DNA of 64,000 bases from NCBI GenBank assembly GCA_027533425.1, contig JAPZUD010000005.1, positions 1 to 64,000 on the forward strand, read 5' to 3'. How positions within the stretch are numbered: position 1 is the first letter of the stretch; every line of letters starts with the position of its first letter. The notes beneath the pieces are model-generated. The model saw only the letters and a list, made by a program, of their open reading frames with translations. It was not told the DNA's origin and ran no database searches. Source of the DNA: Beijerinckiaceae bacterium. GTDB lineage: Bacteria > Pseudomonadota > Alphaproteobacteria > Rhizobiales > Beijerinckiaceae. This document shows positions 620-36,173 of this stretch, piece after piece. The translations under genes and the position numbers were made by a program.

Positions 620-1702
620 TTAAACGAAGTCAGAGAGCATAACATCCGAGTTATGGATCCGACCCAACCGTTTCATATCTTGTTCCACCATGTCTTCCAC
701 GAGTTTACTGAAGGTCGTGACTGGCTTCCAGCCAAGAACACGCTCCGCCTTCGACGCATCTCCAACAAGAAGATCAACTTCAGCTGGCCTGAAGAATAAC
801 GGATCCACTTTGACCAAGACGTCTCCGGTCGCCTTGTCACGGCCCAGTTCGTCTGGGCCACTTCCTTCCCAAGCGATCGTCTTGCCAACGTATCCGAAGG
901 CAGCATCGCAAAATTCTCGCACGGAGTTCATTTCGCCGGTTGCCAACACATAGTCATCGGCATGGTCCTGCTGGAGCATCAGAAACATACCGTAAACGTA
1001 GTCTCGCGCATCACCCCAATCTCGCTTGGCATCCAAATTGCCGAGGGACAGGATCTCCTTTGACCCCAAGGCAATGCGTGCGACTGCCTTGGAGATCTTG
1101 CGCGTTACGAAAAGCTCACCGCGTAAGGCGCCCTCATGATTGAACAGGATGCCATTGGACGCGTGCATCTTGTACGACTCACGGTAGTTCACTGTGATCC
1201 AGTATGCATAAAGCTTGGCCACACCATACGGGCTGCGCGGATAAAAGGGTGTCGTTTCCCTTTGGGGCACTTCTTGCACCTTGCCGTAAAGCTCAGATGT
1301 CGATGCCTGGTAGAAGCGACATGTTTCGGCCAGCCCAGCAAACCGGATAGCTTCCAGCAAACGCAGGGTACCGATCCCGTCTGCATTCGCCGTGTATTCC
1401 GGAAGCTCAAAACTGACGGCGACATGGCTTTGTGCCGCCAAATTGTAAAGCTCTGTGGGGCGGACATCAGCGACAATCCGACAGAGCGAAGGGAAATCCG
1501 TCAAGTCGCCATAATGCAAGTGAACTCGGTCAGCGAGGGACTGACTGCCGAGCTTCGTTGCCAATCGATGCGTATTAGGAGCCGATGATCGACGAACGAT
1601 CCCATGGACCTCATACCCCTTATCGAGAAGCAGCTCGGCAAGATGAGCGCCATCCTGGCCCGTAACGCCAGTGATCAATGCGACGTTTCTTTTCATAATC
1701 AC
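620..1702 (-). CDS. gmd: GDP-mannose 4,6-dehydratase
   Basis: Converts GDP-D-mannose to GDP-4-keto-6-deoxy-D-mannose, the branch point to GDP-fucose, -rhamnose, -talose or -perosamine. The 360-residue length is normal for the family. Visible features are the N-terminal NADP-binding glycine motif ([13 protein letters not shown]), the family signature IVRRSS, the active-site stretch STSELYG and the YGVAK Tyr/Lys pair. The start is a GTG whose bases overlap the stop of the preceding glycosyltransferase (GTGA). An ATG two codons in is an alternative. It is the second gene of a two-gene minus-strand unit and probably works with the reductase at 3093 and with ManC at 20309, which supplies GDP-mannose. 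Confidence 0.95.
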
Positions 1703-2940
1703 TTTCTTTCGGTTGCCGCCCGCAGACCGTACGTGCTGCTCATGAGGGTCGATAGGGTCCCAATGTTATAGCTCTTGAAAGCTATTTCTCTTTGTTCTTC
1801 ATATCGCTCTTGGCCAAACTGGACTTTCTGAGCAAGCTCAAGAGCGTTACCAATATCAAAGGTCTCAAACACTTCTCCGAAGTATTTTTGAGCTTCGAAG
1901 AAGGCCAGATTGTTGCTAACAATCATCCTCGCCCCTGCTTCCAGAGCGAGCACCAAAACACCTGACATACTTTGTCCGACTTCCATATACGGAAGGACAA
2001 CGGCATCACAAAGCCGCAATGCCTCAATGAAGTCCGGATCTGACAGGTTGCCCATGAAGCGGACGCGATTTTTCCATTCGGAGTTCGTTTTGCCACGCGC
2101 CTCCGTGCGTTTGACACCGTTAAGCACCTTGGACAGGAACGGATCAATATCGACGAATTCACGAATGGTTTGCGGGTGCTGAGATCCGAAGATCGCAAGT
2201 TGATACTCTTTCGGCAAATATTCCATGGCCGCGACAGCCGTCTCGACGCCCTTGTATGCGGCAATGTAACCAAAAACGCCAACAATCTTACTGCCCGGAT
2301 CGAACCCGTGCTTTTTCAAAAAGTCGCCCTTATCGACCATTTGGTGAACGCTTGCTCTTTCTTCGGGCTCAAGAAAAGACAGGGGATGATCGATACAATT
2401 CTCAAAGTCGTACATCTGCTTGATGATGCGCTTGTCGCGGTTTGTATGCACCAGAACCCAAGCGTTCTTTGACTCAGAAGCCTTTTTTACCTTTTTGATT
2501 ATCTTGTAGTATAGTTGCTCGTACTGACGACGATTCATCAGTCTGTCGAATTCGCGCTTTGAACCTGAAGAAATCCAAGCTCCCAACGCGCGTGGCAAAG
2601 TCACCGACAATGGATCCACGCGATGCATTGTGACGATAACATTTTTGGAAGCGTCAATTAACCATTCGACATGCTTGAAAATATCGGCCGGACTTGTGCC
2701 GTAGAGTCCCGCTTCAAACTGGATGTTGACGTAGTCAAAATACTGCAGTCTGTCTGCAATCTGCCTGAAATGCTTGTCCGCTTGTTTCTTGAAAAGCGCT
2801 CCTGTCTTTTGAATAAAGAACAGATCAAGAGGAATCACTTCTACGTCAAACTCAGCAGAGAGCGCTTTTTTTATAACATGCGTATAGGATGCGTTGCCGC
2901 AGCTTTCATTATAGCTACTTATAATGGCGAGCTTCTTCAT
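1699..2940 (-). CDS. Glycosyltransferase, GT4-like (GT-B fold)
   Basis: A predicted sugar transferase of surface-polysaccharide assembly, 413 residues from the ATG at 2940. An open frame continues upstream, but the protein similarity begins at [11 protein letters not shown]. The C-terminal half has the glycosyltransferase group 1 pattern: a strand followed by [13 protein letters not shown] (sugar-nucleotide domain), then [17 protein letters not shown] and ALEAG (acceptor/nucleotide glutamates). It is visibly paralogous along its whole length to the protein at 5904-7088: both begin with KLAI(I/V)SSYN..CG and share VNI..E.GL(Y/F)G and A(I/L)FG motifs. Its stop overlaps the gmd start, so the two are probably cotranscribed. 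Donor and acceptor sugars are unknown. Confidence 0.85.
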
Positions 2941-3092
2941 CACAAATACCACGCTTGACGATTCCTGCAGGTGCTGGTAGCACCCCAGCCTTAGCAGTGT
3001 CAACTTGACGATGCTGCGGTGAGGGCTTGATCTGCCTGCGCCCCTGCACGTTCCAGCGGCGCCACAAATCATCCCTATGGCGGGATCGTGGA
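2941..3092. promoter_or_regulatory. Divergent intergenic promoter region
   Basis: This 152-base gap separates the divergent starts of the GT4-gmd unit (minus) and the fucose-synthase-like gene (plus), so both must be served from here. A TTGACG hexamer at 3005-3010 is a candidate -35 box for the plus-strand gene, but the -10 match at the right spacing is poor. A short perfect inverted repeat (GGTGCT-GGT-AGCACC, 2970-2984) lies between the two genes and could be an operator or just a small hairpin. Confidence 0.35.
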
Positions 3093-5903: not shown

Positions 5904-7088
5904 GTGACGAAATTAGCTATCGTCAGCAGTTACAATACACTTTGCGGTATCGCTAAATATGTAGCGCGCCTTCAGGCAGCACTTAGCGGCGATTTTATCG
6001 TTGAAATTATAAAAATTGATGTAGATTTGCTTCGAAAAACGTCAAACTCTGACCGAATTTTGGGCGATAATCACATTGAAGAAATCATTATATCTCTAAA
6101 TAATTTTGATGTTGTCAATATTCACGTTGAGAATGGCTTATTTGGCTCAAAAAGCATTGACGTTTCACGACGACTTAAGCGTCTTTTCGGCATCGAAAAG
6201 CCTCTTTTCCTTACGATGCATTGGCTATCACCAAAGCCGTCTTTTGACTTTCAAAGCTTTTTGACTGATGCACTTTCTTTTAGATTTACAAGAATCTATC
6301 GGTACTTTGACCAGAGGTATCATTACAATCTGGTCGGAAGCTCGCTTTATGGGCAGGAACTGAAAGCCCATCAGCAGAGAAAATTCGTGGGGTTTATCGC
6401 ACATTCGAGACGTGATCGATCAAGGCTTCAAGATGAATTCGGCTTGAATCAGATTTATGACCATCCGGTCTCCTATCTTACGAAAGATGAGATAGAGGTT
6501 ATTCAAAATCGTGCCAGCCGCAATTCATTCCCTTGCCTATCCTTGATTCCAGAAAATTCAAAAATTTATGGCTTGTTTGGCTTCTTGGCACCGTATAAAG
6601 GGATCGAAGTGGCTATTCAAGCGATGAATTATCTCGGACATGATCATTACCTTGCAATATTTGGAGACCTCGCTCCGGGAAACAAGGAAACGAGTTATCG
6701 GGATATGTTGGAGAAAGAAGCCAGAAAACTTGGCGGAAGAGTTGTTTTTTGTGGAGGACAGCCAGAAGATCTGTTTCTTGACGCAATCTCTACATGTGAT
6801 GCTGTGTTGATGCCTTATCGGGAGGTAGGGCTATCGTCATCCGGGCCAGCCAGTCTCGCGCTCGAACTCGGAAAGCGTGTCATTGCATCAGATATCTTAG
6901 CATTCCGATCCCTGCCCGACTATTTTCCGGGACAGCTTCAATTTTTTTCGGAAGGTAATGCTCAAGATCTCGCTTCGAAGATTCAATCAGCGCAAGAATT
7001 TTCCAGTCAAACAAATATTCCCGGTTCTTCATTCAGAAAAAATGTTGATACATATAAAAAAATGATCGAACTCGCGATCAAAAAATAA
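5904..7088 (+). CDS. Glycosyltransferase, GT4-like, AT-rich
   Basis: A 394-residue predicted glycosyltransferase beginning at a GTG preceded by AAGGA. It is a full-length paralogue of the protein at 1699-2940 (shared KLAI.SSYN..CG start, VNI.VENGLFG, GLFGFLAPYKGIE, LMPYREVGLSSSG and ASDILAF elements). The nucleotide-sugar domain is at about residues 225-370. Its codon use is strikingly AT-rich with many AAA, TTT and ATT codons, unlike the GC-rich genes from 7.6 kb onward, which points to horizontal transfer. The sugar donor is not predictable from sequence. Confidence 0.85.
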   Translation: MTKLAIVSSYNTLCGIAKYVARLQAALSGDFIVEIIKIDVDLLRKTSNSDRILGDNHIEEIIISLNNFDVVNIHVENGLFGSKSIDVSRRLKRLFGIEKPLFLTMHWLSPKPSFDFQSFLTDALSFRFTRIYRYFDQRYHYNLVGSSLYGQELKAHQQRKFVGFIAHSRRDRSRLQDEFGLNQIYDHPVSYLTKDEIEVIQNRASRNSFPCLSLIPENSKIYGLFGFLAPYKGIEVAIQAMNYLGHDHYLAIFGDLAPGNKETSYRDMLEKEARKLGGRVVFCGGQPEDLFLDAISTCDAVLMPYREVGLSSSGPASLALELGKRVIASDILAFRSLPDYFPGQLQFFSEGNAQDLASKIQSAQEFSSQTNIPGSSFRKNVDTYKKMIELAIKK

Positions 7089-7106
7089 AAATTCGAATGT
7101 AGGTTC

Positions 7107-7592
7107 TTGCTGGCACAGAAAATGAATAAAAGACATTTAGCCAACAGTCTTTTCCGACTGGCACAGGGCGCCTTACATAATATACAATGCAGCGTGGACC
7201 GGGTGGATCTTGGCGATCTGTCTCATCTTTTAGAGGGCTGGGCTGGCCCGGCGCGATACATGGCGTGCTGCCGACCATGCTTGAACGGCCAAAGCGTGGC
7301 GCGCAGACAGCGCGCGGAACTGGATCCCGAGTGCAAACCTGTTGCGTTTCTTCAGGATGACAGACAAAAGGATTTCAAACGGAAATGGTCGAGGGCAAAC
7401 TCGTTGCCTAGCCATGGAATTGCCTATTGTCGGTGGAGCGTGATTTGCCTTGTCGATTGTTCTGGGTTCCTGGTGAGAAATAGTTCGGCCGATCGTGCTC
7501 AGGAAGTCGGGCTTTCGGATCGTTCTTGCGAGCCGCGGCCGGGTGTGGCTTCCAGCACATAATCTCATCCTTGCAGTTGGGTCGTTCCCAGA
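7107..7592 (+). pseudogene. Degenerate glycosyltransferase N-terminal fragment
   Basis: The stretch around 7190-7245 translates to SVDRVDLGDLSHLLEGW. This matches GVERVDFGCISYLLDHW near the start of the intact gene at 7593. Immediately after, the similarity (GVLPTM against GLLPTV) continues only in another frame, which implies a frameshift near 7250. Further on, an ARRQRAELD stretch resembling the same region returns in the first frame. No glycosyltransferase catalytic domain follows. It looks like a decayed duplicate of the N-terminal part of the neighbouring gene. The evidence is similarity by eye over about 40 codons. Confidence 0.5.
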
Positions 7593-8909
7593 ATGCCACA
7601 TGCCTACCGTCCGATTGTCTACAATGTGGCGCCGTTGCTGCTTGCCGCGCGGGCGCCGGCGCTCCGTGGCGTCGAACGGGTGGATTTCGGCTGTATCAGC
7701 TACCTGCTTGATCATTGGCCGGCGGATGTGGTCGGCCTGCTGCCGACCGTCTTTGGGATGCGCTTCTATTCGCGGGAGCGGATCCAAGCGGCCCGCCGGC
7801 GTCTGATTGGCCTCTGGCGGGAGGAAGGCGACAGAGCCAGCGATCCGGTCTATGAACTGGTCGCCGATGCGCTTCTCGGCAAGGTCTCAGCGCCGCCTAG
7901 ACCTTCGCGACGAGTTGACGTGAGCAAGGCCATTCCGATGCCTCGTGGCTGGGGCCGCGTTGTCGACCTGCTTTTCTCGGATGGCTTTGGGCTTGGCACG
8001 GCTGTGGATGAGGCCCCACAGCATGCTCTCTATCTCGATATCGGGCATATGGGAATCGTCCGTTCAGCCATGCTGGGCTGGCTCAGACGTCGACCGGATA
8101 TTGATCCGATCTTCATGGTCCATGATGCCATCCCGTTCGAAGCACCCGAGTTACTGCATCCGCGCGCGGTCAGACTGCAAAGAAAGGTGTTCAAGCTGGT
8201 TGCCCGGTTCGCGTCGGGCGTGATCGTTCCTTGCGAGGCAATGAACGCGCCTGTCGGCAAGCACCTCTATCGATATGGCGAACGAAACATCCCGGTCCGC
8301 GCCATTCCCCTGCCGATCGACGGGCACTTCTCGCGCGAGGTCCAGCCGGACCCCGTCCTCGCGAAGGTTCCGTTTCTTGTCGCCTGCGGCGTGCTCGAGC
8401 GCCGCAAGAACCAATTGTTTCTGCTGCATGTCTGGCGCGAGTTGATCGCCCGACTCGGACCGGAAGCGCCATATCTCGTCCTCGCGGGCAGGAAAGGTTT
8501 TGGTTCCGAGGAACTGCTGGACCAGTTGCAAAGGTCTGAAGTGCTGCGAGACCGGGTTGTGCTTGCCAAGGGACTGTCCAGTGCATCGTTGGCTCGCCTG
8601 ATGGCCAGTGCACGCGGGGTTCTCATGCCATCGTTCACAGAAGGATTTGGACTACCGCCTATCGAGGCCCTGTCTGTGGGAACGCCTGTCATCCTCTCGG
8701 ACATACCCGCACACCGCGATGCTGCAGGGCCCTATGGAATGTTCTTACATCCCCTCGACGCCCCGGCCTGGATCGAGGCGATCGAAAGCCTTCTTTCCGA
8801 CGAACAGCTTGCAACCCGGCGACAAGCGATAGACGGGTTCACGACGCGTCGCTGGCCGGACTACATGAGCGACTTCAACCAAGTGCTTCAGGAATTCTCA
8901 AACTCCTGA
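7593..8909 (+). CDS. Glycosyltransferase group 1 (GT4)
   Basis: A 438-residue glycosyltransferase. The N-terminal ~200 residues (acceptor domain) contain GVERVDFGCISYLL and DPIFMVHDAIPFE. The C-terminal GT4 domain starts near residue 265 with ACGVLERRKNQ and has ARGVLMPSFTEGFGLPPIEAL (E-x7-E nucleotide-sugar motif) and LSDIPAHRDA. It is GC-rich like the downstream chromosome and unlike the AT-rich gene before it. It is paralogous to 4052-5317 in both domains. It converges on the capsule gene at 8923 with only 13 bases between stops. It probably adds one sugar of the island's polysaccharide. Confidence 0.88.
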   Translation: MPHAYRPIVYNVAPLLLAARAPALRGVERVDFGCISYLLDHWPADVVGLLPTVFGMRFYSRERIQAARRRLIGLWREEGDRASDPVYELVADALLGKVSAPPRPSRRVDVSKAIPMPRGWGRVVDLLFSDGFGLGTAVDEAPQHALYLDIGHMGIVRSAMLGWLRRRPDIDPIFMVHDAIPFEAPELLHPRAVRLQRKVFKLVARFASGVIVPCEAMNAPVGKHLYRYGERNIPVRAIPLPIDGHFSREVQPDPVLAKVPFLVACGVLERRKNQLFLLHVWRELIARLGPEAPYLVLAGRKGFGSEELLDQLQRSEVLRDRVVLAKGLSSASLARLMASARGVLMPSFTEGFGLPPIEALSVGTPVILSDIPAHRDAAGPYGMFLHPLDAPAWIEAIESLLSDEQLATRRQAIDGFTTRRWPDYMSDFNQVLQEFSNS

Positions 8910-28279: not shown

Positions 28280-29145
28280 CAGCGCGCCCCCGCCACGGTG
28301 CCGAACAGGCCTTTCGGGCGCACCAGCAGGACGGCCAGCAGCACCACGAAGGACAGGGCGATCTTGTAGGTGAAGCCGACAAAGGGCGTCGCGATTTCCT
28401 GGACGATACCCAGCGCGATCCCGGCGACGATGGCGCCGCCGGCATGGCCGATCCCGCCGAGGATCGCCGCGGCGAAGGCGGGGAGCAGCAATTCCCAGCC
28501 CATTTCGGGGCTGACCACGGTCTTGATGCCGATAATCGTGCCGGCAAGGCCGGAGACGGCCCCGGCCAGCAGCCAGAGCGCCATCATCACCTTGTGCGGC
28601 GAGATGCCGGAAACGCGCGCGAGGGCGGGATCATCCGCCACGGCGCGCATGCGGCGGCCGATCGGGGTGAGATGCAGCAGCGCGAAGACCGCCGCCAGCG
28701 CCAGCAGGACCACGAGCGAGAGCTTGAGGTCATTCGGATGGATGCGGATATCGAGGATGCGCCAGGGCCGGACGAGCGGCATCTGGAAGACCTGCTGCTG
28801 ATGGCCGAAGGCCACGCCCATGAAGGCCCGGATCACGAAGGCCACGCCGATCGAGGCCAGAAGGGCGGCCACGGAGGAGCGGCCGGAGAGCCGCCGGAAG
28901 ACGAGGAGATAGCCGGCGAGCCCGGCCAGGGCGCCGAGGGCGGCGCCGGCCAGGCCACCGAGGATGAGGGAGCCGGTCAGGCCGGACGAGGCCAGGGCCG
29001 CATAGGCGCCGAGCGTCATGACGTCGCCGGTCGCGGCGTTGGCGAAACGCGCAATGCCGAAAACCAGCGTTATCGCCAGCGCGGCAAGGCCGATGACGAG
29101 CCCAGAAACCAGCCCGTTGAGGATAAGTTCGGCGAAGGCGATCAT
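28279..29145 (-). CDS. livH: Branched-chain amino acid-type ABC permease (LivH)
   Basis: A 288-residue inner-membrane permease of the LivH family. It has LILNGLVSGLVIGLAALAITL (part: GLVIGLAALAITLVFG), the ANAATGDVMTLGAY element and the coupling segment MRAVADDPALARVSGI. The ATG at 29145 precedes IAFAELILNG; an upstream extension of the frame has no similarity and would run into the hairpin after livK. It lies 69 bases after livK. Confidence 0.92.
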   Translation of the reverse strand: MIAFAELILNGLVSGLVIGLAALAITLVFGIARFANAATGDVMTLGAYAALASSGLTGSLILGGLAGAALGALAGLAGYLLVFRRLSGRSSVAALLASIGVAFVIRAFMGVAFGHQQQVFQMPLVRPWRILDIRIHPNDLKLSLVVLLALAAVFALLHLTPIGRRMRAVADDPALARVSGISPHKVMMALWLLAGAVSGLAGTIIGIKTVVSPEMGWELLLPAFAAAILGGIGHAGGAIVAGIALGIVQEIATPFVGFTYKIALSFVVLLAVLLVRPKGLFGTVAGAR

Positions 29146-29173
29146 GGCACCCTGACGGTCGGGGGAAAGGGAA

Positions 29174-29203
29174 CCCCGGAGGCGGGAGAGAACACCTCCG
29201 GGG
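29174..29203 (-). promoter_or_regulatory. Intercistronic hairpin between livK and livH
   Basis: CCCCGGAGG (29174-29182) pairs perfectly with CCTCCGGGG (29195-29203), a 9-bp stem. It sits 11 bases after the livK stop and before livH. Hairpins here usually protect the binding-protein part of the mRNA or attenuate the permease genes. Confidence 0.6.
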
Positions 29204-29214
29204 CCATTCAAGGG

Positions 29215-30435
29215 TCAGATCTTCACAATATACTTGCGGTCGATATTCCCCTTGGACACGACACTGACGGAGAAGTCGGGCGTCACATCGCCGAACTGGT
29301 CGAAATCGAGCACCGACGAGGCGCCCTCGTAATTGATCTTGCCCTTCTTGAGGGCTTCCTTGCCCTCGGCGAAGGTCGAGACCTTGGTGCCGGCAGGGTT
29401 GGCGACCTCGCGGATCTTCGCATTGATCGCAGCGATCGTGGCGCCCGGGCCGGCCGCTTCCATGGCAAGAGCCAGCGTGACAACCATGTCCCAGGTCATC
29501 GCGGCATAGACATTGTCGAGGCCGGGCTTGCCCATGGCCTTCTGGTAGGCGGCATCATAGGCCTTGAAGGCTTCCGACCCCTCGTTCGAGATGCTGTCCA
29601 CCGCGAAGATGCCCTCGGCCACCTCGTTGCCGACCGCCTTGACCAGCTGCGGGTTGGCCGCCCAGGCCGGGATGACCCATTTGGTCGTCTCGCCGGTCTG
29701 GAACCATTCGCGCAGGATGATGGTGGTATCGGCGAGATAGGAGCCGGTGACGATGACATCCGGCTTGGCCGCGAGCACCTTCTGCAATTCGGCGCGATAG
29801 CTCGGCTGGTTGGGCTCGTAGACCACCGCCTCGAGGACCTTGCCGCCCTTGGCTTCCCAGGCCTTCTTGAAGCCTTCGGTATTCCCGATGCCGGAGGCAT
29901 TGTTGAAGGCCATGGTGGCCGGGCGCTTGAAACCCTCCTTCTGGCAGAGTTCGGCAAAGGCGCGGCCGAAACGGTCATTCGTGGCCTGGAACCGGTAGGA
30001 CAGGCCCTTGGCATTGGCCGGCGGCACGGAGAGCGCGGGCGCGCCGGAGGTGTTCATCAGGAAGATGTTGGCGTCGTTGATCAGCGGGATCACCGCCAGC
30101 GACACGCCGGAGGACCAGGTGCCGAGCACGGCCTGGACCTTGTTGACCTCGATCAGCTTCTTGGCGGCGAGAACGGCCGCCTGCGGGGTGGTCTGGGTAT
30201 CCTCGGCGAAAACCTCGAAGCGGCGGCCACCGGCGCCGCCGGCCGCGTTCACCATCTCCACCGCCGCGACGATCATCTTCTGCATGCCGGTGCCATAGGG
30301 CGAGCCGGCCCCGGTGATCGGGTTGAGCGCACCGATGCGGAAGCTTTCCGCCTGGGCGAAGGCGCGCTGGCCCAGCGAGCCGGTCAGGGTGGCGGCGGCG
30401 AGCGCCTGGAGGATGGTGCGGCGAGACAGGTTCAT
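29215..30435 (-). CDS. livK: Liv-type periplasmic substrate-binding protein
   Basis: A 406-residue binding protein (Peripla_BP_6/HAAT family) that delivers the ligand to LivHM. The N-terminus SRRTILQALAAATLTGS...AFAQ looks like a twin-arginine signal with cleavage after AFA. The mature part starts ESFRIGALNPITGAGSPYG, typical of the family, and contains INDANIFLMNTSGAP and VIVTGSYLADTT. It lies downstream of the amidohydrolase (54-base gap) and precedes livH with a strong hairpin between. The ligand is unknown; amides or aromatic acids are possible besides amino acids. Confidence 0.92.
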   Translation of the reverse strand: MNLSRRTILQALAAATLTGSLGQRAFAQAESFRIGALNPITGAGSPYGTGMQKMIVAAVEMVNAAGGAGGRRFEVFAEDTQTTPQAAVLAAKKLIEVNKVQAVLGTWSSGVSLAVIPLINDANIFLMNTSGAPALSVPPANAKGLSYRFQATNDRFGRAFAELCQKEGFKRPATMAFNNASGIGNTEGFKKAWEAKGGKVLEAVVYEPNQPSYRAELQKVLAAKPDVIVTGSYLADTTIILREWFQTGETTKWVIPAWAANPQLVKAVGNEVAEGIFAVDSISNEGSEAFKAYDAAYQKAMGKPGLDNVYAAMTWDMVVTLALAMEAAGPGATIAAINAKIREVANPAGTKVSTFAEGKEALKKGKINYEGASSVLDFDQFGDVTPDFSVSVVSKGNIDRKYIVKI

Positions 30436-30489
30436 GACGTAAACTCCCGGTTGGTGATTGTCGGTCAGGCGTCTATTTTTGGTCTTGCG

Positions 30490-31728
30490 TCAGTTCAGGG
30501 CTTTGCGCTTCACGAAGGCGCCGCCGCGCAGGATGACCGGCATGTGCCGGCCCTGACGCGTCAGCAGCGAGAGATCGGCAAGGGGGTTGCCCTCGACGAC
30601 GACGAGATCGGCATGGGCGCCGGGGGCGATCGTGCCGATCAGACCCTCCATGCGGCAGAGGCGGGCAGCGATATGCGTCGCCGAGGCGATGACATCCTGC
30701 GGCCTGAGCACGCGGCCGCGGATGACGAATTCCTCGGACTGGTGGCGATGCATGGCGCCCAGCAGGTCGCTGCCATAGGCCATGGTCAGCCCGGCTTGCT
30801 GCATGATCTCGAGGGAGTTCAGGCCCGCCAGGCGAACGGTATCGATCTTGGCGACAGAATCCGCCGGGAAGCCGAGCGAGGCCCCCTCGCGCGCCAGCAT
30901 CTCGTAGGTGACGAGCGTGGGCACGGCTACCGCACCGGCCTTCGCGGCGAGGCGGGCCGTTTCCGGACCGATCAGGTTGCAATGTTCGAGGGAATGCACG
31001 CCGCATTCGACGGCTCGGCGGATCGCCTCGTCGGTATAGAGATGGGCCGAGACATAGGTGCCCGCCGCCGCTGCCTCGGCGACGATGGCGGTGATCTCCT
31101 CGCGGCTGAACCCGAAGAAATGGATCGGATCGGTCGGCGAGGCGACGCCGCCATTCGCCATGATCTTGATGAAATCGGCGCCGGCCTTGATCTCCTCGCG
31201 GGAGGCCTGGCGCACGGCATCGACCCCGTCGCAGATCCGGCCCAGCGCACCGAGCGGGAATGGACCCGTGGCCTGCGGGGGGCGGGAATCGAAGCGGCCG
31301 CGGAAATCGGCATGGCCGCCGGTCTGGCTCAGGGCCTTGCCGGAAATGACCAGCCGCGGCATCGGCAGGAGCCCCTCCTCCGCCGCGAGTTTCACGCCGA
31401 AATCCGCGCCGCCGACATCGCGGACGGTGGTGAAGCCACGCATCAGCATGCCCTGCATGATGCCGATGGCCCGGCTCATCACCAGCGAATCCGGCAAGGC
31501 GGCGTTGCGGCCAAGATCGGCCACGCCGGCGACAACATGGACATGGCAATCGATCAGGCCGGGCATCAGCGTCCGGCCGCCTAGATCGAGCCGCTTCGCC
31601 TTCGCGGAAGCGACCTTCGGGCCGACTTCGCGGATGGTACCGCCCTCGACGAGCACATGGACCGGATCGCCGGGGCGGTCAGCCGTGCCATCGACGATGC
31701 GGGCATTGGCGAGAAGAAGCATGGCCAT
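30490..31728 (-). CDS. Metal-dependent amidohydrolase (imidazolonepropionase-like)
   Basis: A 412-residue member of the amidohydrolase superfamily with a split composite domain (residues ~1-60 and ~350-412) around a TIM barrel. Metal ligands are visible: the H-x-H pair in PGLIDCHVHV near residue 62, a histidine in VSAHLYTDEAIRRA, one in GVHSLEHCNL, and an aspartate in MAYGSDLLGAMH. The closest relatives by pattern are imidazolonepropionase-like/Xaa-Pro dipeptidase-like hydrolases. No signal peptide is seen, so it acts in the cytoplasm. It starts 2 bases after the TetR gene and precedes LivK, suggesting it hydrolyses the compound the Liv system imports. Confidence 0.88.
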   Translation of the reverse strand: MAMLLLANARIVDGTADRPGDPVHVLVEGGTIREVGPKVASAKAKRLDLGGRTLMPGLIDCHVHVVAGVADLGRNAALPDSLVMSRAIGIMQGMLMRGFTTVRDVGGADFGVKLAAEEGLLPMPRLVISGKALSQTGGHADFRGRFDSRPPQATGPFPLGALGRICDGVDAVRQASREEIKAGADFIKIMANGGVASPTDPIHFFGFSREEITAIVAEAAAAGTYVSAHLYTDEAIRRAVECGVHSLEHCNLIGPETARLAAKAGAVAVPTLVTYEMLAREGASLGFPADSVAKIDTVRLAGLNSLEIMQQAGLTMAYGSDLLGAMHRHQSEEFVIRGRVLRPQDVIASATHIAARLCRMEGLIGTIAPGAHADLVVVEGNPLADLSLLTRQGRHMPVILRGGAFVKRKALN

Positions 31729-31730
31729 TT

Positions 31731-32396
31731 TCAGTGTCCCCTGAACGGAATCGTGACGATGCGCGGGCCGCCCCGGTCCGGCCGGGCGGCGGCGAGCTGG
31801 GCGCGGATGCTGGCTTTCCAGAAATCGAGCAGCCGGCGGTAATAGGGCGGATCATCGCGCAGGATGGTCTGGGCGATCATGCCGCGGATCAGGCACATGG
31901 TGGCGTTGAGCAGGTCGCGCCCGGCTTCCGGCTTCATGCCGTAGCGGGCGGTCAGTTCGCCCCAGATCTCGTCGAGCGCGGCATGCCAGCGGCTGACCAC
32001 CGGCACGAGCCGGCTGCGGAACATCGCATTGTGGCGCGCCTCCGGCAGGTATTCGAGCGTGACATAGAAGAGCCGGTCCGACATGACGCCGTAGAGAAAC
32101 TCGATCAGCGCATCGGAAGAACTTTCGCCCTCGGCAACCCGGGTGGCGTAGCTCTTCAGCTCGCCGATCACCTTGTCGAGCATGTCCTCGATCGCGGCAG
32201 CGATGAGTTCCTCGCGGCTCTCGAAGTGATGGGTCAGCGCTCCGCGCGAAACGCCGGCCGCTTCCGCGATGTCATTGGTGGAGGTGCCGGCAAGGCCGCG
32301 CTCATGCATCAGCGTGACGGCGGCATCGAGCAGGCGCTGGCGCGTCTCGGCCGATCGCTCGGCCTGGGATCGTCTCGGCTTCGGCTGCTGTGCCAT
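31731..32396 (-). CDS. TetR-family transcriptional regulator
   Basis: A 221-residue regulator starting at the ATG at 32396 after a strong GGGAGGGA ribosome-binding site. The N-terminal helix-turn-helix is clear (RQRLLDAAVTLMHERG, TSTNDIAEAAGVSRGALTHHFESREEL, shown in parts). The C-terminal ~150 residues form the ligand domain (YGVMSDRLFYVTLEYLPEARHN). It is the first gene of the TetR-amidohydrolase-LivKHMGF operon. An inverted repeat sits over its own promoter, so autorepression relieved by the imported compound is likely. Confidence 0.9.
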   Translation of the reverse strand: MAQQPKPRRSQAERSAETRQRLLDAAVTLMHERGLAGTSTNDIAEAAGVSRGALTHHFESREELIAAAIEDMLDKVIGELKSYATRVAEGESSSDALIEFLYGVMSDRLFYVTLEYLPEARHNAMFRSRLVPVVSRWHAALDEIWGELTARYGMKPEAGRDLLNATMCLIRGMIAQTILRDDPPYYRRLLDFWKASIRAQLAAARPDRGGPRIVTIPFRGH

Positions 32397-32420
32397 TCCC
32401 GTCCCTCCCCCGGATGAAGG

Positions 32421-32459
32421 GAGGCTAACCGATCGAAACAAACCGTCAAGCCTGTTTGT
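32421..32459 (-). promoter_or_regulatory. TetR operator overlapping the operon promoter
   Basis: An inverted repeat ACAAAC-N10-GTTTGT occupies 32438-32459. On the minus strand it encloses TTGACG (32449 to 32444), which with a TAGCCT 16 bases on (32427 to 32422) makes a good sigma-70 promoter about 25 bases before the TetR start. A repressor bound here would block the -35 box, the usual autoregulatory layout for TetR genes. Confidence 0.6.
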
Positions 32460-32502
32460 AAATGTATGGCTGTGGAGAAGTTCCGGCCGCTTTCGCGCAG
32501 GG

Positions 32503-34932
32503 TCAGACCTTGTAGCGCTTCGCCGATTGCTGGAGCGTGGCCGAGATAGCGGTGAGATCGCCGGCACGCTGGTCGAGTTCCTGCGCCGACCGGACATTCT
32601 CGCCGACCGTCTGGCGGATCTGCCCGACAACATGGCCCGTCGTGGAGATCGCCTGGTCGACATCGCTCATATAGGCCGCGAGATGGACGACATCGCCCGA
32701 CATGCGCCCGACCGACTGCGCCACCACATTGACGCGGCCGGACACATCCTCCACCGCGCCATGGACCGAGCCGGCGACGCGCGCCTGGCTTTCGGAGGCA
32801 TCGGCGATGGTCGTGATGATGCCGCCGATATCGGCAAGCACCGTGCGGAGCGCCTCGAAGCTCTGGCTGGCTTCCGCGGTGCCGCTGCGCAGGGCGGCCA
32901 CGCGGGCCTTGACCTCCATGGTCGCCCGCTGGGTCTGGAGCGCCAGCGCCTTGACCTCGGTGGCGACGACGGCGAAACCGCGACCGGCTTCGCCCGCCCG
33001 GGCTGCCTCGATCGTGGCATTGAGGGCCAGCAGGTTGGTCTTGCTGGCAATATCATCGATCAGATCGGCGATCGCGTTGATCTGGTCGCTGGCCAGGACG
33101 AGGCTCGACATCTGCTGCTCGGAGCGGCCGACCAGTTCGCTCGCGGAATGGGAGACTTCCCGGCCCCGGCGGGCGGATTCCCCGACATCCAGCACCGAGC
33201 CGGACAGCGCGCCGATCTGGCGTGCAAGTTCATTGATGGTCTCGCTCATGCCCATCGCCGCCTCGGCGACGCGGCCGGCATCGTCGCGCAGGTCTTCGGC
33301 CTGGCCGGCGCTCTGGCGCGAGCGGCCTTGCAGGTCCTGCGTCGAGCGTCCGACTTCGGCGGTTTCGCGGTCGAGCGTCTCGGAATCGCCCCGGAAGCGC
33401 TCCGACAGGCCCTTGAGCGAGCCCGAGGCCTGGGCGATGCGGCCGGCATCCCGCGCGATCTGTGCCTGGAGACGGTGGAATTCATCGAGGAAGGGATTGA
33501 TGATCTTGGCGATCTCGCCTGCCTCATCGCCAGAGCCGGCATCAAGCCGGCGGGTCAGGTCGCGGTCGACCTGCGTGATGCGGTAGAGTTCTTCCTGCAG
33601 CGCACCGGTGCCGATCTGGGCGCCATGCTCGGCCACGTTGAGGCCACGCAATTCGTCCTCCGCCGAGAGGCGGATGCCGATGGTCTTCTTCATGAGCCAG
33701 AAGGCGGCGAGGCCCATGCCGAAGGCCCAGACAAAGGCCGCAGCGACGCCCTGGAGCTGGACGAGGAAGGAGCCCATCACCGTGAGGTCGCCCAGCTTGC
33801 CCGAGAGGGCGAAGAACGGCACCAGCAGCGTGCCGACCGCGCCGGCAACGCCATGGACACCGAGAACGCCGGCGACATCGTCCAGCTTGAGCTGGTTGAG
33901 CACGAAATCCTCGACATAGACCACCATCGCGCCGCAGCAGAGCCCGATGGCGATAGCGCCCTTCAGGCCGACAGCATCGCAGCCGGCGGTGATGCCGACA
34001 AGGCCGGCGAGCAGGCCGTTGATCAGGCGGTTGGTCTGGTAGCAGCGGTCGCGGATGCGCCCGATCAGCACGGCGATGATGCCGCCGGCGGCCGCAGCCA
34101 GCAGCGTATTGGCGGCGATCTTGCCGATGGCGCCGCTGGCGGCCACGGTGGAGCCGGCATTGAAGCCGATCCAGCCGACCAGCAGCAACATGGCCCCGAA
34201 GGCCGTCAATACATGCGAATGGCCATGGATCGGCAGCGGCTTGCCATTCGGGTCGAACCGGCCGATGCGCGGTCCGAGCATGATGATGCCGGCCAGCGCG
34301 ATCCAGGCGCCGATCGAATGGACCACGGTGGAGCCGGCAAAATCGATGAAGCCCTGTGCAGCCAGCCAGGGCTTGTTGTCGGTGACGAGGCCCGCGCCCC
34401 AGGCCCAGTGGCCGAAGACGGGATAGATCACAAGACCGACCATGGCGGCCAGCATGATATAGGCACCATAGCTCATGCGTTCGGCGACCGCCCCGGAGAC
34501 GATGGTGGCGGCGGTGCCGGCAAAGGCGACCTGGAAGACGAAATAGGTCTGGCCCCAATCATCCAGCCCCTCATAGGACCAGACCGGCCCGGGCATGCCG
34601 AACAGGCCACCGATGGAGGGGCCGAACATCAGCATGAAGCCGAACACGGCGAAGCAGAAAGCCGAGACGAAGAAATCGATCACGTTCTTCTGGGCGACAT
34701 TGATGGTGTTCTTCGAGCGGACCATGCCGGCTTCGAGCATCAGGAAGCCGCATTGCATCAGCAGGACCAGCGCGGCCGCCGTGATGACCCAGACATGGTT
34801 GAGGCTTGTCTTGAGCGCGGCCAGCTCGGCGGCGAGGTTGGCATCGGCGGCGAATGACGGGACCGGCGCGAGAACAAGACCGCAAAGCAAAGCGGCGACA
34901 GCGCTTCGGGCAGCAGGGCGAGTCGGAGTCAT
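32503..34932 (-). CDS. Ammonium transporter-chemoreceptor fusion (Amt-MCP)
   Basis: An 809-residue fusion. After a signal-like segment (ending PSFAA), residues ~35-430 form a complete Amt/Rh ammonium channel: [30 protein letters not shown] (first pore His near 204, with the conserved Asp just before), [10 protein letters not shown] (gate Phe), and [13 protein letters not shown] (second pore His near 360). Residues ~430-520 are a linker with a HAMP-like region ([19 protein letters not shown]). The rest is a coiled-coil methyl-accepting signalling domain with the hairpin tip [24 protein letters not shown] near 636. All pore residues I could check are kept, so it may transport and signal. It has no C-terminal CheR-docking pentapeptide, and no glnK lies beside it. 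It probably senses ammonium to steer motility. Confidence 0.93.
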
Positions 34933-35075
34933 CACATTTCCCGTCGATTGAGCACGATCAGACGGAATTTTTGATTAGAATTGTATAATATATGGTTAAA
35001 ATATTGAATATATTGGCTTTTCGAGCCCCTCGCCCGAAATGGATTGCCGGCTCGTAAAGCCCGCTGCCGGACGGC
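34933..35075 (-). promoter_or_regulatory. AT-rich upstream region of the Amt-MCP gene
   Basis: In an otherwise GC-rich region, bases about 34968-35020 are almost pure A/T and contain TATATTATACAATT on the minus strand. This is a plausible -10 region 40-50 bases before the start. No clear -35 box, sigma-54 site or NtrC-type dyad was found. The GGGA before the GTG/ATG pair at 34935/34932 favours the ATG. Confidence 0.35.
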
Positions 35076-36173
35076 TCACGGAACGGCCGAAATCAACAGG
35101 AACACCGCAAAGATGACAAGATGGATCACACCGTGCAGGGCGGTGGTCTTGCCGGTGCCCAATGTCAGGGTGCTGACGAAAAGTGTCAGCACCAGCAACG
35201 ACATGGCCGAGTTCGATACACCAAGATCAAGCTTCATGCCCATGAGCACCGAGAGCACGGCGACCACGGGGATGGTCAGCCCGATGCTGGCGATGGCGGA
35301 ACCCACCGCCAGGTTGATCGAGTTCTGAAGGCGGTTCTGGAGGGCGGATTTCACCGCAGCGATGCTTTCCGGCGCGAGCACGATGGCCGCGATGATCACC
35401 CCGACAAAGGCCTTGGGCAGCCCCGCCGCCGTAACAGCGCTGGCCATGGGGACCGACAGGACCTTCGCCAGCAGGATGACCGCGCTGAGCGAGAGCAGCA
35501 GGAGCACGAGGCTCGCCAGGGCCAGCGCCTGGCTCGGACGGTCAGCAATCTTGACCGCCTCCCCCACCGTCGGCGTCTCGAGGAAGTAATTCCGGTGGCG
35601 GATGGTCTGCGTGAAGACGAACGCAACCCAGAGCAGCAGCGACGCGGCGCCGATAACGAGGACCTGGACATTGGAAAAGGCCGGGCCGGATGCCGAAAGC
35701 GTGAAATTCGGCAGGATCAGCGTGATGGCCGCGAGGGTCCCGAGCACGGCAAGCGCCGAGGAAGCGCCGAGCAGCTGGAATTGCTGCTCATGGTGCCGGC
35801 GCCCCCCGGCGAGCAAGCTGAGGCCGATCACCCCGTTGAGAACAATCAGCACGGCTGCATAGACCGTGTCCCGCGCAACTCCCTCGGATCCGGCCGATCC
35901 TGACAGCATGATCGAGACGATCAGCCCGACCTCGATCACCGTGACGGCGACGGCGAGCAGGATGGAGCCGAAGGGCTCGCCGAGCTTCAGCGCGAGGATT
36001 TCCGCATGATGGACGGCGGCGAAGACGGCGGCGCCAAGGAGGACCGAAACGAGAAGCAGCACCCAGATCGCGTCGGCGGGGATGATGCCGCCGAATTTCA
36101 GGCCGAGGACCAGCAAAGCGAGCCCGGGGGCAACCCAGGTCCAGGGGGGATTGGAGGCGGAATGCGCGGCCAT
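35076..36173 (-). CDS. ChaA/y4hA-type cation-proton antiporter
   Basis: A 365-residue inner-membrane antiporter of the CaCA superfamily (ChaA/CAX branch), exchanging Ca2+, Na+ or K+ for protons. It has about eleven hydrophobic segments and the two inverted alpha-repeat motifs: GEPFGSILLAVAVTVIEVGLI near residue 65 (part: VAVTVIEVGL) and VLAPESIAAVKSALQNRLQNSINLAVGSAIASIGL near 265 (part: NSINLAVGSAIASIG). Each carries its essential glutamate. It is a single gene with gaps of about 120-140 bases on both sides. Cation preference cannot be read from the sequence. Confidence 0.88.
   Translation of the reverse strand: MAAHSASNPPWTWVAPGLALLVLGLKFGGIIPADAIWVLLLVSVLLGAAVFAAVHHAEILALKLGEPFGSILLAVAVTVIEVGLIVSIMLSGSAGSEGVARDTVYAAVLIVLNGVIGLSLLAGGRRHHEQQFQLLGASSALAVLGTLAAITLILPNFTLSASGPAFSNVQVLVIGAASLLLWVAFVFTQTIRHRNYFLETPTVGEAVKIADRPSQALALASLVLLLLSLSAVILLAKVLSVPMASAVTAAGLPKAFVGVIIAAIVLAPESIAAVKSALQNRLQNSINLAVGSAIASIGLTIPVVAVLSVLMGMKLDLGVSNSAMSLLVLTLFVSTLTLGTGKTTALHGVIHLVIFAVFLLISAVP

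Follow-up and report, generated by a model that had tools for sequence, protein, structure and literature searches.

Ammonium transporters of the Amt family are trimers, and methyl-accepting chemotaxis proteins (MCPs) are dimers. A receptor Amt coupled to a cyclase reportedly has a solved structure, and the paper on Sd-Amt1 of Shewanella denitrificans is said to describe an Amt-HAMP-diguanylate cyclase with a HAMP linker that reportedly pairs. The PDB titles of 8qj3 and 8qj4 name the protein Receptor Sd-Amt1, in the OFF and ON state respectively. A structure also exists for a receptor Amt coupled to a kinase, Ks-Amt5 of Kuenenia stuttgartiensis. According to PMC5764959, the output of Ks-Amt5 is a histidine kinase that is attached without HAMP, ammonium is bound with an apparent Kd of 41 ± 24 µM and with strong selectivity over methylammonium, loop 5 is long, and ammonium is not translocated efficiently even though the transporter motifs are kept. 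The same paper describes two ammonium ions held by Q24, E31, N47, D50, T51, T109 and T112. In AmtB-GlnK channels the P-II gene adjoins amtB. Receptor Amts are thus already known, and it is the MCP output described here that is new. Indeed, no Amt-MCP protein is described among the papers listed in the open-licence literature searched (titles and starts of abstracts), nor in the excerpted passages of PMC12918730, PMC8534201, PMC3180692 and PMC6896113; the term Amt-MCP occurs twice in PMC3699834, which concerns fluorescent ammonium sensors.

An earlier note on the window (the whole 64,000-nucleotide stretch of DNA that was analysed) had claimed that a single reading frame joins an Amt channel to a full MCP hairpin. 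This is borne out, with both Pfam domains above their cut-offs (Table 1). Ammonium_transp (PF00909) matches over profile positions 1-396 of 399 (E = 2.3e-102; 343.1 bits against a cut-off of 23.2) and MCPsignal (PF00015) matches residues 588-749 (E = 3.3e-29; 102.4 bits against a cut-off of 34.6). We consider it likely, with a probability of about 0.7 for the explanation as a whole, that the fusion protein is a transmembrane ammonium chemoreceptor derived from an Amt and signalling to CheA; Amt-based sensing that feeds CheA, as the earlier note had proposed, is thereby upheld as the best reading. The gene lies on contig C6 of a 3.75 Mb genome, and a second in-frame start, an ATG at 34932 that the earlier note had used, directly follows its GTG. 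In the AlphaFold2 model (59 sequences, mean pLDDT 83, pTM 0.61) residues 1-26 have a pLDDT below 50. Nothing in the open reading frames and Pfam matches at the locus ties either flanking gene, the exchanger or the TetR-family regulator, to the fusion. The longest ORF of the TetR-family gene extends to 32663. Gene neighbours were located at 15 loci by position, with products left unassigned, and hence we make no claim of conserved context. Two long plus-strand frames (28444-31584 and 32269-34857) oppose the transporter, amidohydrolase and fusion genes, and are in all likelihood shadow frames arising from coding sequence of high G+C content.

Table 1. Features of the fusion locus, in positions of the window
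Feature	Position	Strand	Details
Amt-HAMP-like-MCP fusion gene	32503-34935	minus	810 codons + stop; GTG start
Signal-peptide-like N terminus, residues 1-29 (...PVPSFA/AD)	34849-34935	minus	predicted cleavage (at the slash), inferred from the letters
Amt domain, residues 48-439	33619-34794	minus	Pfam PF00909; model matches Ks-Amt5 and Sd-Amt1 best
Six residues mapping on the Ks-Amt5 two-ammonium site (Q61, E68, N84, D87, T144, S147)	34495-34755	minus	alignment
HAMP-like linker, residues 444-490 (approx.)	33466-33606	minus	model; Pfam HAMP in part of the homologues
MCP cytoplasmic hairpin, residues 500-808	32512-33438	minus	Pfam and model
Hairpin tip region, residues 626-670	32926-33060	minus	core identical to the other 16 MCPs of the genome
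Sodium/calcium exchanger family gene, flanking	35076-36173	minus	Pfam; upstream of the fusion
TetR-family regulator gene, flanking	31731-32396	minus	start MAQQPKP picked by eye; downstream of the fusion

The Amt domain of the model comprises 11 long helices, and its nearest solved structures by both sequence and fold are Ks-Amt5 (6eu6) and Sd-Amt1 (8qj3, 8qj4, 8qpf), followed by Af-Amt1 and AmtB; the top three fold matches are Ks-Amt5 and Sd-Amt1 in two states. Ks-Amt5 was rightly named as the precedent, while the earlier reading missed that of Sd-Amt1, together with the wide distribution, the HAMP-like linker and the separate P-II-Amt pair described below. Ks-Amt5 and the fusion protein both have a whole Amt domain with intact pore motifs, and these domains share 42% identity with a TM score of 0.95 by target length. 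They differ in output, a histidine kinase in the one and an MCP hairpin in the other. Sd-Amt1 reportedly bears a diguanylate cyclase rather than a hairpin. The AmtB-GlnK channel has fold, sequence family and pore motifs in common with the fusion protein, but the AmtB entries listed are 26-28% identical to its Amt domain, and in this genome the pair of a P-II gene and an Amt sits away from the fusion, where the P-II gene immediately precedes the second Amt (C10:576830-578657). Of the three P-II matches in the genome, two fall on C10 and one on C11. None falls on the fusion contig C6, in agreement with the earlier remark that no glnK lies beside the fusion. Assignment to the marine-type Amt subfamily (TIGR03644) was rejected (280.6 bits against a cut-off of 514).

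The residues that hold ammonium in Ks-Amt5 map by alignment to Q61, E68, N84, D87, F88, T144 and S147 of the fusion protein. Five of the seven are identical, T112 is conservatively replaced by S147, and T51 corresponds to F88; Sd-Amt1 has the same six site positions and, like the fusion protein, a phenylalanine at the seventh. We therefore scored Amt domains at six positions, leaving aside the variable T51/F88 place and accepting S or T at the last. Among 70 Amt-MCP rows, 64 score 6/6, four score 5/6 and two, which are without the N-terminal part, score 2/6, so that 64 of the 68 N-complete rows carry the full site. Other fused Amts score 6/6 (seven of nine) or 5/6 (two of nine), and both sensor structures agree at 6/6; these counts exclude another three fused rows, each open at a contig end, which score 6, 6 and 2 of 6. 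Plain Amts (n = 46, a set biased to canonical and family Amts, being the best PF00909 scorers of the class sample and the Amts of the family) score 6/6 in two cases, 5 in one, 3 in 14, 1 in 13 and none in 16; E. coli AmtB shares none of the six positions. The sole family plain Amt tested for subfamily (L019) is of the marine type. The plain exceptions, L107 and L099 with 6/6 and L104 with 5/6, show that plain Amts can carry the site too, and since they are the plain rows nearest to the fused clade, the site may, judging from the sequences, be older than the fusion. Ammonium would be the ligand of the fusion protein.

The canonical pore residues are also intact (F138, W179, D198, H206, F258, S262 and H361), including the D198, H206, F258 and H361 to which the earlier note had pointed (GTG numbering; the histidines are 205 and 360 when counted from the ATG). 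Phe gate, Trp/Ser filter, Asp and twin His are however insufficient for calling the protein a transporter, as Ks-Amt5 has filter, gate and His pair too. Thus, of the earlier suggestion that the protein could both conduct and report ammonium, reporting to CheA stands as the best reading, whereas conduction does not follow from intact motifs and is weakened because Ks-Amt5 keeps them and is yet reported without efficient translocation. Conduction by the fusion protein is probably weak or absent, although the change of T51 to F88 and the loss of two pore-blocking residues (below) leave room for it. A transceptor, in which the Amt conducts as AmtB does while reporting flux or occupancy to CheA, appears unlikely to us. 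All checked pore residues fit it, as does the fact that, of three bulky residues blocking the Ks-Amt5 pore, only F64 is kept, the other two being replaced by smaller residues (L67 and M71; Af-Amt1 also has M at the latter place). Against this, besides the Ks-Amt5 precedent, the buried ion site is largely present, the separate P-II-Amt pair can serve uptake, and a related subclade has lost the twin His altogether.

In that subclade, formed by three Amt-MCP proteins (L047, L049 and L076; support 100/100), H206 is replaced by C or S, H361 by N and S262 by L, while D198, W179, F138, F258, E68, N84, D87, T144 and S147 are retained. All six site positions are kept in L049, and L047 and L076 have K for Q61. 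Loss of the pore histidines with retention of the site is the pattern that would be expected of a receptor without need to conduct, and the lysine at Q61 may mark an altered ligand. The loci are 6001-8286 (L047), 663-3077 (L049) and 6001-8286 (L076), all three in metagenome-assembled genomes (MAGs) that are labelled Alphaproteobacteria (two) and Rickettsiales (one). The combination of Q61 to K and twin-His loss in L047 and L076 makes ligand drift within the family plausible, and with it a receptor for some other ligand or state (a small amine, a cation, pH or an ion) on the Amt scaffold. For the fusion protein itself we hold this to be quite improbable, because it keeps W179, S262, Q61, E68, N84 and D87, and because Ks-Amt5 is reported in PMC5764959 to prefer ammonium so strongly. 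The length of loop 5 was also considered as a mark of sensors and was rejected, since the His206-Phe258 spacing of 52 is common to 17 of the 46 plain Amts.

Behind the Amt domain, the predicted structure places a helix (444-456), a loop (457-470) and a second helix that runs from 471 towards the hairpin, with a pLDDT of 74-89 over the block. In this model the membrane domain and the hairpin are joined by helix, connector and helix, as is typical of HAMP. Pfam HAMP (PF00672) has no match in the fusion protein itself, and matches 26 of the 59 aligned Amt-MCP proteins at E 0.01; it lies directly behind the Amt in the members whose position was inspected, and L042, L047 and L160 pass the Pfam cut-off among the members whose scores were inspected. 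A HAMP-like linker is seen in the model, and some of the homologues have one too. The fusion protein shares with HAMP-containing transmembrane MCPs this linker and a hairpin with standard tip, and differs from them in its input, which is an Amt domain in place of a periplasmic or PAS sensor. The hairpin of the model spans 546-646 and 648-806; confidence is low at 527-549 and at 745-771. A search of the fusion protein for the methylation consensus gave one loose match, at 603-611, and no strict one. The protein ends in QSAKRYKV, without a C-terminal CheR pentapeptide, as had been remarked earlier; a pentapeptide-like motif is likewise absent from the last 15 residues of all 69 fused ORFs.

Counting the fusion, the genome holds 17 MCP matches. 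It also has four flagellin matches, of which two lie at contig ends. Genes for CheR, CheB, a CheY-like receiver, CheW and CheA lie in one run. The C-arm of the fusion hairpin is 161 residues long, compared with 137-139 in 14 of the 16 other MCPs, and mixing in one array with other receptors is for this reason uncertain. It could accordingly be asked whether the hairpin drives a non-motility output, or forms a receptor cluster of its own apart from the main array. The longer arm would suit such an arrangement, as would gap totals of 7, 14 or 21 in nine of the 16 hairpin BLAST alignments (the other seven total 0, 0, 3, 5, 13, 25 and 34). However, the hairpin shares its tip core with the other MCPs, and the genome has only three CheW-domain matches, all in one cheA and one cheW of a single locus, which means that one kinase is available. 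We regard a separate output or cluster as highly improbable.

For an ammonium chemoreceptor that signals to CheA, the following mechanism can be envisaged. External ammonium would enter the vestibule of the Amt and be held in the buried ion site of its core; binding would shift the cytoplasmic end of the Amt helices, and the HAMP-like linker would relay this shift to the MCP hairpin. The hairpin tip would then alter CheA activity through CheW, so that swimming would be biased by ammonium. The sign of the taxis response, like the way in which an Amt trimer drives normally dimeric hairpins, would have to be inferred. If true, the CheA-coupled protein would be a bacterial ammonium chemoreceptor with a transporter as its sensor, and Amt signalling could be read in living cells by the well-worked assays of chemotaxis. 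It would also raise the question of how a membrane domain with threefold symmetry can function within arrays assembled from receptor dimers.

To assess whether the fusion is real, we turned to the genus of the source genome, where full-length, stop-free homologues occur in nine of 17 genomes; among the 15 of high quality (at least 90% complete, at most 5% contaminated) the fusion is found in eight. The homologues form two subgroups, at 91-97% and 68-69% identity, and Rhabdaerophilum sp. SD176, of a genus that NCBI places in the Hyphomicrobiales (Alphaproteobacteria), carries the same fused frame at 97% identity. Compared with the four nearest homologues, the Amt has a dN/dS of 0.073-0.122, and the values are lower in the linker (0.00-0.044) and the hairpin (0.017-0.057). 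Against the farther subgroup, with about half of the synonymous sites changed, the hairpin (0.34-0.51) is looser than the Amt (0.185-0.20). No fusion was found at E 1e-60 in the remaining eight of the 17 genomes (one of them 78% complete), and so the fusion is dispensable. These eight genomes are the one point in favour of an artefact of assembly or sequencing, or of a decaying fusion. Independent genomes share the frame, near relatives show low dN/dS in all three parts (Amt, linker and hairpin), and both domains are present in all 59 aligned proteins; the full-length homologues and the low dN/dS refute the artefact for practical purposes, and we give it a negligible chance. The two doubts raised in the earlier note, a sequencing error joining two genes and loss of the fusion in all close relatives, are thus laid to rest by the stop-free frame and its retention in the genus. 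CheW matches and an Amt besides the fusion occur in all 17 genomes, and neither accounts for the eight without the fusion; in the nine carriers this second Amt is a shorter frame. The hairpin (alignment A1, columns 505-814) has diverged far more between the genus subgroups, with a pN of about 0.33 compared to 0.13 for the Amt and 0.09 for the linker.

Beyond the genus, alignment A1 was used to scan a collection of 84,980 species genomes. This yielded 557 pattern matches and 443 relatives, and the best 80 of the relatives were used. The hairpin profile built from A1 matches 69 of these 80 ORFs, which answers in the positive whether the Amt plus MCP architecture recurs; it had replaced a strict tip pattern that missed many MCP fusions. 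The other 11 comprise four with a GGDEF motif, three that are kinase-like by motif, three open at a contig end and one plain Amt (L099), and Pfam confirms GGDEF in L096 and a kinase in L100 and L103. Alignment of 58 of the 69 with the fusion protein, 11 near-copies, truncated or surplus sequences being left out, showed that Ammonium_transp and MCPsignal both match in 59 of 59. By record titles, Amt-MCP proteins occur in at least eight named phyla (Pseudomonadota, Bacillota, Spirochaetota, Thermodesulfobacteriota, Planctomycetota, Verrucomicrobiota, Myxococcota and Campylobacterota) plus SAR324, many of the records being MAGs in which single placements may be binning errors. Carriers also include named strains and two complete chromosomes, those of Desulfosarcina alkanivorans and Desulfoluna limicola.

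Within the family, a sample of 248 genomes drawn from a larger group gave a match at E 1e-60 in 16, of which eight are the genus with the fusion and eight have plain-looking Amts; two of the latter (G036 and G105) have additional Amt frames of 922 and 1089 codons. By eye, these frames (L014 and L015) run into GGDEF and EAL-like sequence, and their Amt is 44-45% identical to the fusion protein. In the class sample 34 of 387 genomes match at E 1e-150, with 36 matches in all and at most two candidates scored per genome. Four, from four genomes including the source, are near the full Amt-MCP length, and the three besides the source are indeed Amt-MCP; another 30 have frames of 666-854 codons that lack the hairpin, and the last two are a plain Amt and a partial copy. 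All four examined of those 30 (L156-L159) are Amt-HisKA-HATPase. Amt-MCP thus occurs in about one per 100 class genomes at E 1e-150 and is outnumbered in the class by other Amt fusions, which, to judge from the four examined, are kinases.

A tree was built from 91 of 131 Amt domains, the others being near-copies, truncated rows or surplus plain rows. Its 73 fused rows (62 MCP, seven cyclase and four kinase) all fall in one clade (support 100/99) that includes Ks-Amt5 and Sd-Amt1, and all 18 plain rows fall outside; most of the fused proteins had been retrieved by similarity to this protein, so that fusions elsewhere in the Amt tree would be missed. Labels change five times for MCP and three times each for cyclase and kinase, from which it follows that a single receptor lineage has swapped its outputs. 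Ks-Amt5 groups with Bacillaceae Amt-MCPs (99/85), a placement that is unsure, as is that of Sd-Amt1, both being on long branches. The tree program flagged the joining of two long plain branches, as well as unusual composition in L014, L015 and L049.

Taken together, there is perhaps an even chance that Amt-HAMP-MCP proteins form a widespread, undescribed class of chemoreceptors, in which a membrane-buried ion site would sense ammonium instead of a periplasmic domain, a trimeric base would bring a trimer-to-dimer mismatch into arrays, and one subclade would have given up the pore and kept the receptor. Its natural members without pore histidines would test the need of conduction for sensing, which is the standing transceptor question. 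Azospirillum halopraeferens has two contigs (L045 and L046) whose Amt-MCP matches have equal identity, coverage and E-value, and the pair is either a recent duplication or an assembly copy.
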